This document shows, piece by piece, positions 41,839 through 54,166 of a stretch of DNA of 64,000 nucleotides (position 1 is the stretch's first letter; every line of letters starts with the position of its first letter). Made by a program: the position numbers and the translations under genes. Source of the DNA: Acetatifactor sp. (lineage in GTDB: Bacteria > Bacillota > Clostridia > Lachnospirales > Lachnospiraceae); contig JAILHH010000020.1 in the NCBI GenBank assembly GCA_024695935.1, positions 1-64,000 of the forward strand, given 5' to 3'. The notes beneath the pieces were generated by a model. It had not been told where the DNA came from and made no database searches. It worked only from the letters and a program-made list of their open reading frames with translations.

Positions 41839-41895
41839 GAAATTATTTATATTGGCTAGTAAACATCAAAATATAAAGACAAAGGAGTGTTACCT

Positions 41896-43662
41896 ATGAA
41901 GAAACTATCTCTACGTGCTAAGTTTGCAGTTATTTTGCTCCCGGTTTTTGTGATGATTTTTGGATTGATGATAGTGTTTGGAAGCTACATCAGCGGTCTT
42001 TATAAAGACCTGACCACGACCCTCTATGATGAGGTTTATACTTCCAGCACCAACCTGATAAACGGTGAGAGAGACTTTTATCAATCCTTGCAGGCCTTCC
42101 TCATAATGCTTGCCGATCCGTCAAAGACCGATGATCAGCTTGGAGCATACGAGGCAAATTACAATCAGACTATCGACAGACTTCAGATCGCTGCGGATAT
42201 AGTAAGCAGTCACCCTGAGTGGTACAGAGGATTTACCATTGCGGACCTGGCAAAAAAGACAGGACTTAACCCGGCGGATGACGAGGACGGTTATCTGTCG
42301 GACAACAGGACCTATGAAGATGTAGAGAAACAATACGTGACAGAGATCTTCGGATACCATGATTCCTATAATCCTGCAGACAGAAGCGGAGATGCTGTGG
42401 CTGCCCAGGAGCATTTTGCAAATGCCGGTTCATACATCAATAACATGAAAGACATCATCGATATGTATGCTTCATACGAGATGGAGAGATATCAGGGGGA
42501 GATGAAGACTCAGCTCACCATCGCATACATAGTAATGGTAGCCCTTGCAGTTGTGATCTTTATCCTCACCATCCTCATAATCGAGAACATCATGAGAGGT
42601 GTAAAGACCACTCAGGACAATATGGAGCAGTTGGCTAACAAAAATCTGAAATACGAGCCAAAGGAAATAAACGGAAAAGATGAGATCGCCAAAATGGCTA
42701 ATGCCTCCGTGCGACTCTTCGAAAACCAGAAGAATATATTGAACCTCATAAATGATGCATCCAACAGGATCGGCGAAGCATCAACCACCCTCAGCAATTC
42801 ATCCCATGATGTGGAGAATACTACAAATGAGATCTCCACAGCTATCAACGAGATTGCAGACAAGATCTCGGCGCAGGCTGCAGAGACAGGAGAAGCTTCC
42901 GAGCAGACAAAGATCCTTGGAGATATTGTTGTGGCAAGTAATGAGACAGCTGAAAACCTCGCAAATGTAGGTGCTGCCATCGGAACAGCTACCGCAGACG
43001 GTATGAAGGTGGTTACACAGCTTCAGAGAGATACTGAGGCAAATGAAGTGGCATTCGGCAGGATATTTGATTCCATCAATGCCATGACAGTCAGCGCTTC
43101 AAAGATCGGTGAAGCATCACAGCTTATTGCAGAGATCGCTTCCCAGACAAACCTCCTTTCCCTCAACGCTTCAATTGAGGCAGCCAGAGCAGGTGAGGCA
43201 GGCCGTGGTTTTGCAGTCGTGGCAGACGAGATCAGAGGTCTTGCAGAACAGTCAGCAAATGCGGTAAATGCCATCGACAGCATGCTGGCAGAACTCAACA
43301 AATGCGTTGAGCAGGCTTCAAATGAGCGTGTTCAGGTGGAAGAAGCTGTTAAGACCCAGGCTGACAGCGTTTCCGCAACAGGCGAGAAATATAAACTCAT
43401 CGTTGATAAAGTTGATGAGATCAATGAGCAGGTTAGATCACTGGATGAGCTCAGCAACAACATGGATCAGAGCTGCAAGGTTGTTGTAAATGCAGTAAAC
43501 AACCTCTCCAGCCAGGCCACCGATGCCGCTGCAAGCTCGCAGCAGACATCTGCATCCACCGCTTATGTACAGGATAATGTGGTGAAGATCACATCCATCA
43601 GCGATGATATCCAGAACCTTTCCGTAGAACTCAAAAACCTCCTCTCAGAGTTCGAGTTCTAG
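41896..43662 (+). CDS. Methyl-accepting chemotaxis protein
   Basis: A 588-residue membrane receptor. TM1 spans about residues 10-32, the extracytoplasmic sensor about 33-205 and TM2 about 206-232. A HAMP domain ([23 protein letters not shown]) follows, then the long signalling coiled coil with its hairpin tip [37 protein letters not shown] (conserved E-A-A-R-A-G-E). Ligand is unknown. No CheW-binding variant residues are apparent. The ATG at 41896 is chosen because AAAGGAG lies 8 nt upstream; the GTG at 41887 is part of that site. The adjacent sugar transporter suggests, but does not show, sugar taxis. Confidence 0.93.
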
Positions 43663-43697: not shown

Positions 43698-43723
43698 AGG
43701 GGAGCATTCAGCTCCCCTTTTTT
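43698..43723 (+). terminator. Terminator of the chemoreceptor gene
   Basis: AGGGGAGC/GCTCCCCT (43698-43705/43711-43718) with a six-T tail. Confidence 0.92.
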
Positions 43724-43735
43724 GTATAACAACGA

Positions 43736-43872
43736 GCCTATGTCCCGCCTGCAAGCTTGCTTGCGAGGAGGACTTAGGCGACTGTAGAACACCGAAAGGC
43801 TTTGCCTTGAGGTGTGAAACAGAGTTGAAATCGAGGAGTGAGCCTACTAGATTGATGACAGCCTCACCAAGT
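43736..43872. repeat. Structured intergenic element of unknown family
   Basis: Three nested dyads follow each other: GCCTA.GTCC with GGAC.TAGGC, enclosing GCAAGC/GCTTGC, then ACACC/GGTGT enclosing AAGGC/GCCTT. The phrase GCGAGGAGGACTTAGGCGACTG resembles GCGAGGACTGTCTGAGCGACTG in the 172-bp repeats near 45.5 kb, so this may be a distant member of the same interspersed family. No coding potential is evident. Confidence 0.45.
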
Positions 43873-43910: not shown

Positions 43911-44215
43911 GTGACTGCAAATACATTATTTTAGAAATGCGGTCACGGAAAATAACCCGGCCAAGTGACCGCAAATCAGGATTTCGCCGAATGCGGTCAC
44001 GGAAAATAACCCGGCTTAGTGACCGCAAATCAGGATTTCGTCGAATGCGGTCACGGAAAATAACCTCGGCAAGTGACCGCAAATTAGGATTTCGCCGAAT
44101 GCGGTCACGGAAAATAACCCCGGCAAGTGACCGCAAATTAGGATTTCCCAAAATGCGGTCACAAAATAGATCGAATATCAGTGACCGCAAAAGCAAATCC
44201 GGCAATTGCGGTCAA
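43911..44215. repeat. Array of twelve alternating 9-bp half-sites with a 27-bp step
   Basis: GTGACCGCA and its reverse complement TGCGGTCAC alternate with starts at 43911, 43938, 43965, 43992, 44019, 44046, 44073, 44100, 44127, 44154, 44181 and 44207. Ten successive steps are exactly 27 bp and the last is 26. The first copy has one mismatch (GTGACTGCA) and the last lacks the final C. Central spacers are conserved (54-bp tandem unit), but the outer spacers differ completely while the 9-mers and spacing persist. Both strands stay open because 54 is a multiple of three; the resulting Arg-rich frames are not credible genes. Confidence 0.93.
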
Positions 44216-44275: not shown

Positions 44276-44304
44276 TTGACTTTTTCTATAATAAATAATA
44301 TATT
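44276..44304 (+). promoter_or_regulatory. Promoter of the radical SAM gene
   Basis: TTGACT (44276-44281) and TATATT (44299-44304), spacer 17 bp, 61 bp after the half-site array. Confidence 0.65.
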
Positions 44305-44364
44305 TGATATAAATAGTCGCATACAATAGTATTGTACAAAATATAATCGGAACAGGTGAAAAAT

Positions 44365-45459
44365 ATGAATGAAAATTTTGATTTAGGCAGTTATCTTACA
44401 GGTGGCGTTGAAAAAATCGTAAAGGGCGCCATTAAGGCAACTCTCTCCAATCCTCAGGAGAGTATTTTCCTGGCAAAATATGCCGCAGCATCAAAGATCG
44501 CGAGCAAAAAAAGAGCAGAAGCTGACGCAAGGGGCGAACACATTCCTCCCTTTTTGATAGCCAGCATCACAAGCAGCTGTAATCTTCATTGCGCGGGATG
44601 TTATTCCAGAGCAAATCATGCATGTAATGATCAGGCTCCCGTAAGCCAGCTCACTGACAAGGAATGGGGCAAGATTTTTGCGGAAGCAAAGGACTTGGGT
44701 ATAGGATTTATTCTCCTTGCTGGCGGTGAACCTTTGCTTAGAAAGGATGTAATGGAGGAGGCAGGTCATGTGCAGGACATCCTGTTCCCCGTATTTACCA
44801 ACGGCACCCTCATAAGCGAGGCATATATACAGACATTCGAAAAATACAGAAACCTGGTTCCCGTACTCAGTATCGAGGGACGAAAGGAAAAGACTGATAA
44901 CAGAAGAGGCGAAGGCGTCTATGATAAGGCTGTAAAAGCCATGGAACTTATGCAGGACCACAAAGTCATCTTTGGTGCAAGCGTCACTGTCACCACAGAA
45001 AACCTTGAGGAAGTTACAAGCGAAGCCTTCCTTGAAAAACTTGAGGAGAGAGGCTGCAAAGTAGTCTTCTATGTAGAATTTGTACCTGTCACCGAGGAGG
45101 CAACACATCTGGCACCCGGGGACAAAGAAAGAGAATATTTAAACGAGAGACTCTCAGTTCTCAGAAGTAACCGAGACGGTATGGTATACGTTTCCTTTCC
45201 CGGAGATGAAAAGACCTCCGGCGGATGCCTTGCCGCAGGAAGAGGATTTTTCCATATCAATTCCCACGGTGGAGCAGAACCCTGCCCATTCTCTCCTTAT
45301 TCTGATATAAATGTGAGGGATACTTCCGTAAGAGAAGCGTTGAAATCAAAACTTTTCACATCTCTTCAGGACGGTGGCGTCCTGAACGAAGATCACGCCG
45401 GCGGATGCGTCCTTTTTGAAAGACAGGACAAAGTAAAAGAGATCATGGCCGCCAACTAA
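44365..45459 (+). CDS. Radical SAM protein (HemK-like/SPASM-type, function unknown)
   Basis: A 364-residue radical SAM enzyme. The CxxxCxxC motif binding the SAM cluster is SSCNLHCAGCYSRAN (about residues 70-84), followed by LLAGGEPLLRKDVME, the SAM-contacting FTNGTLI and VTVTTENLEEV. The C-terminal part has several cysteines (GGCLAAGRGFF, AEPCPFSPYS, AGGCVLF) at positions where auxiliary-cluster SPASM-like domains place theirs, though not in the full pattern. About 65 residues precede the cluster motif. Substrate unknown; no peptide precursor is adjacent. The start at 44365 follows AGGTGA; a GTG nine bases earlier overlaps that site. It lies directly downstream of the half-site array. Confidence 0.85.
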   Translation: MNENFDLGSYLTGGVEKIVKGAIKATLSNPQESIFLAKYAAASKIASKKRAEADARGEHIPPFLIASITSSCNLHCAGCYSRANHACNDQAPVSQLTDKEWGKIFAEAKDLGIGFILLAGGEPLLRKDVMEEAGHVQDILFPVFTNGTLISEAYIQTFEKYRNLVPVLSIEGRKEKTDNRRGEGVYDKAVKAMELMQDHKVIFGASVTVTTENLEEVTSEAFLEKLEERGCKVVFYVEFVPVTEEATHLAPGDKEREYLNERLSVLRSNRDGMVYVSFPGDEKTSGGCLAAGRGFFHINSHGGAEPCPFSPYSDINVRDTSVREALKSKLFTSLQDGGVLNEDHAGGCVLFERQDKVKEIMAAN

Positions 45460-45484: not shown

Positions 45485-45656
45485 TGAAAATGTGAAAAGT
45501 AAGCGGGATGTCTGTGGGGATGCCACCAAGCGAGTTCCGCAGACGCGAAGCGGCGAGGACTGTCTGAGCGACTGGCACCCTGCAGACGGGGCCCGCTTCA
45601 AATGCAAACAACTAAAGGTGAAACTTTTTCCATAGAAGTATTGGAAAAACCTTCAC
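45485..45656. repeat. 172-bp structured direct repeat, copy 1
   Basis: The same sequence recurs 207 bp downstream with about three mismatches. It folds into an outer AAGCGGG/CCCGCTT stem, then GTCTG/CAGAC and TGCCA/TGGCA around a GCG-rich core. At the 3' end is a terminator-like hairpin (AAGGTGAA/TTCACCTT with inner TTTTTCCA/TGGAAAAA); copy 1 keeps the T-run after it. It begins 26 bp after the radical SAM stop and may serve as its terminator. Confidence 0.88.
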
Positions 45657-45691
45657 CTTTTTTATTTTCCTTCCGATCACAATAACTTCGC

Positions 45692-45863
45692 TGAAAATGT
45701 GAAAAGTAAGCGGGATGTCTGTAGGGATGCCACCAAGCGAGTTCCGCAGACGCGAAGCGGCGAGGACTGTCTGAGCGACTGGCGCCCTGCAGACGGGGCC
45801 CGCTTCAAATGCAAATAACTAAAGGTGAAACTTTTTCCATAGAAGTATTGGAAAAACCTTCAC
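45692..45863. repeat. 172-bp structured direct repeat, copy 2
   Basis: Near-identical to copy 1 (differences at GTGGGG/GTAGGG, GGCACC/GGCGCC and CAAACA/CAAATA). It ends inside the 3' hairpin arm, so the T-run is lost (CTTCACTGATAAT). The remaining 45864-46017 is AT-rich upstream DNA of the GGDEF gene with no clear promoter. No gene is seen in 45460-46017. Confidence 0.88.
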
Positions 45864-52747: not shown

Positions 52748-54166
52748 ATGAATTCCAGGATCAAAAAGATTCAAATCTTTATCATCACCGGATTTACGAT
52801 CATTCTTGCCATGGGGAACATAGCGTACATTCTGGTGCGCATGGGCGAGGGGAAAACAGTATCAGAGGTTTTTGGGGTTTACAGAGAAACGATCCATATG
52901 TTTTTGTATATGTGGATCACATGGATTTTAATGGTATTATGTCAGTTAAAATTCAGTCACATGCTGTCCAAAACAAGGGCAGAACTCGAAAAAGCGAGGA
53001 TCGAGGCCGAACAGGCAAACCGTGCAAAGACTACTTTTTTATTCAACATGTCTCACGATATCAGGACGCCCATAAGCGCCATTATGGGATTTGCGGATAT
53101 GTTAAAAAAACACAAAAACGACGACAAGACGGATCAGTACATCGAAAACATTCAGGTTTCCACAAAGTATCTCATAGAACTTATGGATGATGTGCTGGAG
53201 GTATCCAGGCTTGTGAGCGGGGAAGTAGTATATGACGATTCCACTGTCATCAACCTGGACGAATTCTGTGATTCCGTATCCGTTGTGTTTGACGAATCCA
53301 TGAAAGAGAAAAAACTGGATTTTAATGTGAACTTTGATGTGCTTCACAACGAAGTCTATTGCGATACGGCAAAACTCAGGCGGATATATTTAAATGTCCT
53401 TGGAAATGCCGTGAAATATACCCCAGAGGGTGGCTCCATCACCATGGATATAAGTGAGATACCCGGTGAGGAGAAGGGAAGCAATTCCTACAAGACGGTC
53501 ATAAGCGATACGGGGCTTGGAATATCAAAGGAGTATCTTCCTCACGTGTTTGAGGAGTTTACCAGACAGCGCACCGTCACTGAGAACAAGATATCGGGAA
53601 CGGGTCTGGGACTATATATCACAAAGCACCTGATAGAACTGATCGGAGGCACCATCGAGATAGAGAGCACGGAGGGCGAGGGAACAACGGTAACATTTGT
53701 ATTGTCCCTCAGGACCACCGGAAAGCGCGTCCCGAAAAACAAAAATGCCGGACAGGAAACAGTCAAAAAGGACAAGGTTTCAATGGCCGGAAAGAGAGTC
53801 CTTGTGGCAGAGGACAACGAATTAAATGCCATAATCGTAAAGGATGTGCTGGAGGAAGCCGGAGTTTTGACAAGCCATGCGGAGGACGGAGTTCAGGCTG
53901 TGAACTTGGTTAAGGAAAATTCCGAGGGATATTTTGATGCCATACTTATGGATATACAGATGCCGAACCTAAACGGTTATGAGGCCGCAAAGCAGATAAG
54001 GGCTCTCCCCGGAAAAAGAGGAGAGGTTCCCATATTGGCAGTGACCGCAAATGTCTTTGACGAGGACAAAAAGAATGCCAAAGAAGCCGGCATGAACGGC
54101 CACGTGGCAAAACCCATAGATGCCGAGAAACTGATAGAGTCCATCAGCGAAGTCATAGAAAAGTAA
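52748..54166 (+). CDS. Membrane hybrid histidine kinase (second)
   Basis: A 472-residue kinase. Two N-terminal transmembrane segments (about residues 7-30 and 50-70) enclose only a short external loop. A coiled coil follows, then His[22 protein letters not shown] (phospho-His about 103), HATPase ([34 protein letters not shown]) and receiver [14 protein letters not shown] with phospho-Asp in [19 protein letters not shown] and Lys in HVAKPID. It lies between the chitinase and an oligosaccharide importer, so a role in sensing polysaccharide products is conceivable. TTGGAGG precedes the ATG, and a promoter-like TTATTAAACTG region is weak. Confidence 0.92.

Follow-up and report, generated by a model that had tools for sequence, protein, structure and literature searches.

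What is the function of an intergenic stretch of DNA in which twelve short sequence words alternate in direction at near-perfect intervals? The locus in question lies in a 64,000-nucleotide window (the whole stretch analyzed; positions 1 to 64,000 of contig JAILHH010000020.1, GenBank assembly GCA_024695935.1) from the draft genome of a gut-type bacterium, Acetatifactor sp. (2.64 Mb, 41 contigs, 96.6% complete; hereafter G000). Ten perfect copies of the 9-mer GTGACCGCA lie at 43938(-), 43965(+), 43992(-), 44019(+), 44046(-), 44073(+), 44100(-), 44127(+), 44154(-) and 44181(+), with one-mismatch copies starting at 43911 (GTGACTGCA) and 44207 (TGCGGTCAA). All ten steps from 43911 to 44181 are exactly 27 bp, whereas the last is 26. 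The 9-mer is expected 0.31 times in the window by chance; eleven copies were found (ten in the array and one stray at 54041), a number reached by 0 of 100 shuffles. The initial observation, made by a sequence-only reading that reported twelve alternating 9-bp half-sites on a 27-bp lattice, is therefore confirmed.

The array (43911-44215) can be described as six dyad units of the form GTGACYGCA-N17/18-TGCGGTCAC. Unit 1 (43911-43946) pairs the mismatched GTGACTGCA with TGCGGTCAC around a spacer unrelated to those of units 2-5; units 2 (43965-44000), 3 (44019-44054), 4 (44073-44108) and 5 (44127-44162) have perfect 9-bp arms, although the right half of the unit 5 spacer has diverged; and unit 6 (44181-44215) is 35 bp long, with the mismatched right arm TGCGGTCAA and an unrelated spacer. 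Inspection of this region calls for a correction to the sequence-only reading, which had argued from the unrelated outer spacers for selection rather than simple tandem duplication: the outer spacers are indeed unrelated to the central ones, but the four central units are near-identical copies (tandem repeat finding gives 54 bp x 4.2), so that tandem duplication did contribute. The array is positioned, as had been proposed, between a terminator and a promoter. An intrinsic terminator (43698-43718, forward strand) follows a methyl-accepting chemotaxis-type gene (41887-43662), and a sigma-70-like promoter (44276-44304, forward strand) precedes a radical SAM gene (44356-45459, forward strand; 367 aa, GTG start).

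To determine whether the array is unique, we searched for the same word and lattice elsewhere. Within G000, both recur on contigs C4, C7, C13, C25 and C26, with a short array on C40, giving six arrays plus a short one, all intergenic, and about 40 units in total. The exact word pair is absent from 396 other genomes of the family and from viral contigs (IMG/VR), and similarity searches of plasmid and phage records likewise returned no match, which gives no support to a phage or plasmid origin. A scan of 84,980 species genomes gave scattered single hairpins, mostly chance or terminators, and two short lattices in rumen Clostridia (loci L039 and L034). Among the single hairpins were some beside small reading frames that we read as holin-like toxins (loci L032 and L025) and took to be convergent; in these two loci, and in L090 (4600-4740), the stop codon of the small frame lies in a GTGAC...GTCAC terminator hairpin (TGACCGCA...TGCGGTCA in L032 and L025).

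In a sister species (G001), the gene pair that flanks the window array (the radical SAM product is 97% identical) also has an array between it, but built from another word, GTGACCTGA...CAGGTCAC. Arrays or single units lie at two further orthologous places (C7/C195 and C40/C116), although unit number differs between orthologous loci (6 versus 5; 5 versus 1). A relaxed search (GTGAC-N25-28-GTCAC-N16-19-GTGAC) found the same lattice in G332, a genome of another genus of the family, and a class-wide sample of 391 genomes gave only one further plausible case, G534. Lattice hits in two other genomes, G305 and G298, consist of repeats of other makeup, and since single-hit genomes were about as frequent in the reversed control, we treated them as chance plus duplication; one G305 locus (L089, contig C31) is a kilobase-scale intergenic region of repeated GTGACT/AGTCAC motifs mixed with terminator-like hairpins, with steps of 23 and 29. 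In two genomes of another Clostridia family (G729 and G680), clusters of short palindromes, GTGACTATAGTCAC / GTGACCAAAGTCAC, lie in front of genes (L114 1500-1580 and L115 1460-1600).

Comparison of 61 units from three species of two genera shows that the conserved geometry is not the one first proposed. Measured on a 6-bp core, GTGACY...RGTCAC, the outer step is 24 bp in 49 of 50 cases and the inner step is 29 or 30 bp (inner unit 35 or 36 bp); in the window array itself, the core steps alternate between 30 and 24. The even 27-bp lattice is thus a consequence of taking a nine-base word. Because units were found with the core as search pattern, invariance of the core across all 61 units arises partly by selection of hits, but a comparison between orthologous loci is less affected. 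Aligning the window array with its sister unit by unit, we found that the cores differ at 2 of 60 bases, bases 7-9 at 21 of 30, and outer spacers at 64 of 90 (Fisher p about 1e-15); the inner spacers differ at 32 of 85, a figure that is optimized over a gap and so biased low. Fourfold-degenerate sites of the two flanking genes differ by 49-50%, indicating that spacers are essentially unconstrained whereas cores are held. The sister array moreover keeps steps of 29 and 24; a loss of phasing in relatives, which had been named beforehand as grounds for rejecting a functional reading, was looked for and not found. These results indicate that core and spacing are under selection, and that the 9-mer is partly species-specific.

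We sought next to determine whether arrays of this design occur with other words. A word-free scan for alternating lattices over 0.79 Mb of G000 found, besides the GTGAC arrays, TACAGT...ACTGTA (C2, C10 and C14), ACTGTAAAA...TTTTACAGT on C26 (98126-98455, or L135 18126-18455; five units at a period of 74 bp, seven helical turns, with near-identical spacers) and ATGCAAC...GTTGCAT on C25 (66733-66960, or L130 6733-6965; a period of 62-63 bp, six helical turns, intergenic and directly after a gene end), with no cluster in a Markov control. TACAGT-N23-25-ACTGTA occurs 69 times in G000 and 33 times in the sister genome, as compared to 0-2 times in nine others. In 18 TACAGT array loci, the inner step is 30 or 31 bp and the outer step takes only the values 21-22, 31-33, 42-43, 53 and 63 bp, such that nearest same-orientation spacings cluster near whole helical turns, at 52, 62, 73, 84, 93 and 104 bp (Rayleigh R 0.90 at 10.45 bp, n=144). 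Counting each distinct outer step once per array gives R 0.93 (n=38), which was reached by 0 of 20,000 uniform controls. Steps mix freely within arrays of unrelated spacers, so duplication does not explain them. In two orthologous TACAGT arrays, cores differ at 2/147 and spacers at 70/781 columns (p=0.0006). Intrinsic curvature by phased A-tracts is significant in the GTGAC arrays tested, but is not above shuffled runs in most TACAGT arrays, and hence is not the common cause. This pattern is the signature of sites that must lie on one face of double-stranded DNA.

Gene context points to no evident target process. None of the arrays examined lies inside a sizeable gene, and of the loci with both neighbors called, about six are convergent, two divergent and the rest tandem, against 11 convergent of 94 long gaps in the background, at most a mild excess in convergent gaps. 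A protein-coding repeat was also considered, since 54 bp corresponds to 18 codons and leaves open reading frames across the window array; however, the period is 53 bp in G001 and G332 and alternates between 53 and 54 in C25, so that no frame is kept.

The reading that we favor, with reasonable but not high confidence, is that the array is a double-stranded-DNA platform for an as yet unidentified sequence-specific protein. In this view, the protein would read the 6-bp core, with a preference extended to GTGACYGCA in this species, and the cores would be arranged as inverted pairs so that successive same-orientation cores fall on one helical face every five turns (the GTGAC period of 53-54 bp is about 5.1 turns). 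Oligomers bound side by side would form a wrapped or filament-like complex in an intergenic gap, with a local use that is either architectural (nucleoid, supercoil or transcription insulation) or regulatory. The genome carries at least one companion system of the same design with another word, TACAGT...ACTGTA. The recurrence of the arrays, their lattice and intergenic position, the selection on the core, and the helical quantization of the TACAGT family rest directly on the sequence comparisons, whereas the existence of a protein that binds, its oligomerization and the role of the complex are inferences. Helical quantization was shown for TACAGT and not independently for GTGAC, whose period is nearly fixed, so that a common mode of action for the two families is likewise inferred. 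One feature fits this model poorly: the GTGAC-array spacers are strongly strand-asymmetric (A much above T, inner and outer spacers agreeing), and the A-rich strand is the gene-majority, G-rich/leading strand at 7 of 7 loci (L016, L017, L018, the window, L042, L043 and L123), convergent and divergent ones included. A symmetric double-stranded site does not predict this bias, which may reflect a directional complex or replication-strand composition. The over-representation of GGA in the spacers does not fit the model either.

Alternative origins for the arrays appear unlikely, though each accounts for part of the data. The strand asymmetry, together with the 9-bp stems, an enrichment of GGA in loops and linkers, and the presence of CsrA in G000 and G001, would suit tandem RNA hairpins that sequester an RNA-binding protein, as CsrB does, or that shape transcripts. 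Yet CsrA was not found in the array-bearing G332 (90% complete); right arms shuffled within arrays pair as well as the true partners (144 versus 142.8; 758 of 2000 shuffles), with T:G hardly commoner than C:A (12 versus 9); the window array has no terminator of its own; no Rfam 15 family matches the window above its gathering score; and helical quantization of the companion family is a double-helix signal. Still less likely is a neutral minisatellite in which tandem duplication and template switching between inverted arms keep the arms alike. The near-identical central units and variable unit numbers agree with such a process, but the conservation of cores against saturated spacers, the occurrence of one core at many unlinked loci with unrelated spacers, and the quantization of spacings across arrays do not.

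A BIME-like mobile or amplifying element of the REP/REPIN type, spread by a single-strand-DNA transposase with alternation as a by-product, is also doubtful, although regularly alternating orientation, intergenic position and species-restricted words all match the published description of BIMEs (PMC2817692). Two pairs of arrays share left flanks: those on C13 and C26 of G000 share ATGTCAACAGGTACTG, with an outward TTGACA hexamer, and two arrays of G332 (L087 4560-4661 and L088 3040-3110) share a different module of ~75 bp with a CACACTGG...GTGTGGGC dyad just before the first unit. However, the only Y1_Tnp (PF01797) gene in G000 lies next to what reads like a TnpB gene, as in ordinary IS200/IS605, with no array word around it; no REP-type transposase (RAYT), which would be flanked by two inverted copies of the repeat, was recognized in this 96.6% complete genome; and, where checked, arrays sit at the same loci in the two species. 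Helical quantization with unrelated spacers is, moreover, not expected from copying.

We read the arrays as working like BIME-2 clusters or Lrp-type phased sites, but not as members of the REP/BIME, CRISPR or matS kinds. Among described systems, BIME-2/REP clusters of Enterobacteria, Pseudomonas and Xanthomonas are reported protein-binding sites and share the alternating intergenic arrangement, many per genome (PMC2817692), but REPs are imperfect palindromes with a GT(A/G)G head and an associated RAYT, whereas GTGACCGCA and TACAGT are non-palindromic half-sites of 6-9 bp, carry no such head, and are spaced (as shown for TACAGT) by helical turns. Phased operators of oligomeric architectural regulators such as the Lrp/AsnC family likewise place several sites at whole helical turns so that an oligomer wraps or bridges DNA, but the described cases are individual promoters rather than dozens of genus-restricted arrays. 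Plasmid centromeres and iterons (sopC, parC) are tandem arrays of short sites, some with inverted repeats, present once or a few times per replicon beside par genes; here at least 17 arrays are scattered over chromosomal contigs of the sampled genome (about 0.8 Mb plus individual loci) without par neighbors, which makes partition unlikely. The matS site of MatP shares a GTGAC...GTCAC inverted core but is a solitary 13-bp sequence, GTGACRNYGTCAC, that was found in none of 213 loci. CRISPR arrays comprise direct repeats of about 23-47 bp with unique spacers near cas genes, whereas the window array has 9-bp alternating words, repeated spacers, and a chemotaxis-type and a radical SAM gene as neighbors. 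The dispersed Pasteurellacean uptake sequence, AAGTGCGGT, does not occur in the window, and the words found here are confined to arrays (the stray at 54041 aside). We found no paper describing such arrays in a literature search that did not extend to subscription journals.

The interpretation offered by the sequence-only reading is thus partly supported. Selection on sites and spacing, a protein-binding platform with same-orientation sites on one DNA face, and the lack of CRISPR character are supported, whereas the 9-mer as the conserved unit and 27 bp as the basic step are not; of the roles it listed, partition is unlikely, a mobile repeat is disfavored, and a regulatory or nucleoid function remains possible. 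A bolder reading, tentative but compatible with the data, is that these arrays represent a previously undescribed class of bacterial "phased satellites," in which each genus keeps one or more private half-site words, amplified into dozens of intergenic arrays held to whole helical turns, with each word read by a dedicated, fast-evolving oligomeric protein that organizes the chromosome. Chromosome organization in Clostridia beyond SMC/ParB, HU and AbrB-type factors is poorly known, and here sequence alone gives a testable signature, a short conserved core in inverted pairs with spacings locked to the helical repeat, in about 40 (GTGAC) and 69 (TACAGT) units of one genome. A cognate protein would reveal a lineage-private architectural or regulatory system and explain how intergenic repeats with species-specific words are kept; a mobile repeat would instead constitute a BIME-like element in Firmicutes that obeys helical phase, which is also unexpected. 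Examination of the surrounding window additionally revealed a 207-bp repeat (45485-45863; 1.8 copies at 98% identity) downstream of the radical SAM gene, whose "cgcgaagcggcgaggactgtctgagcgac" style resembles the stretch at 43740-43850 before the array.
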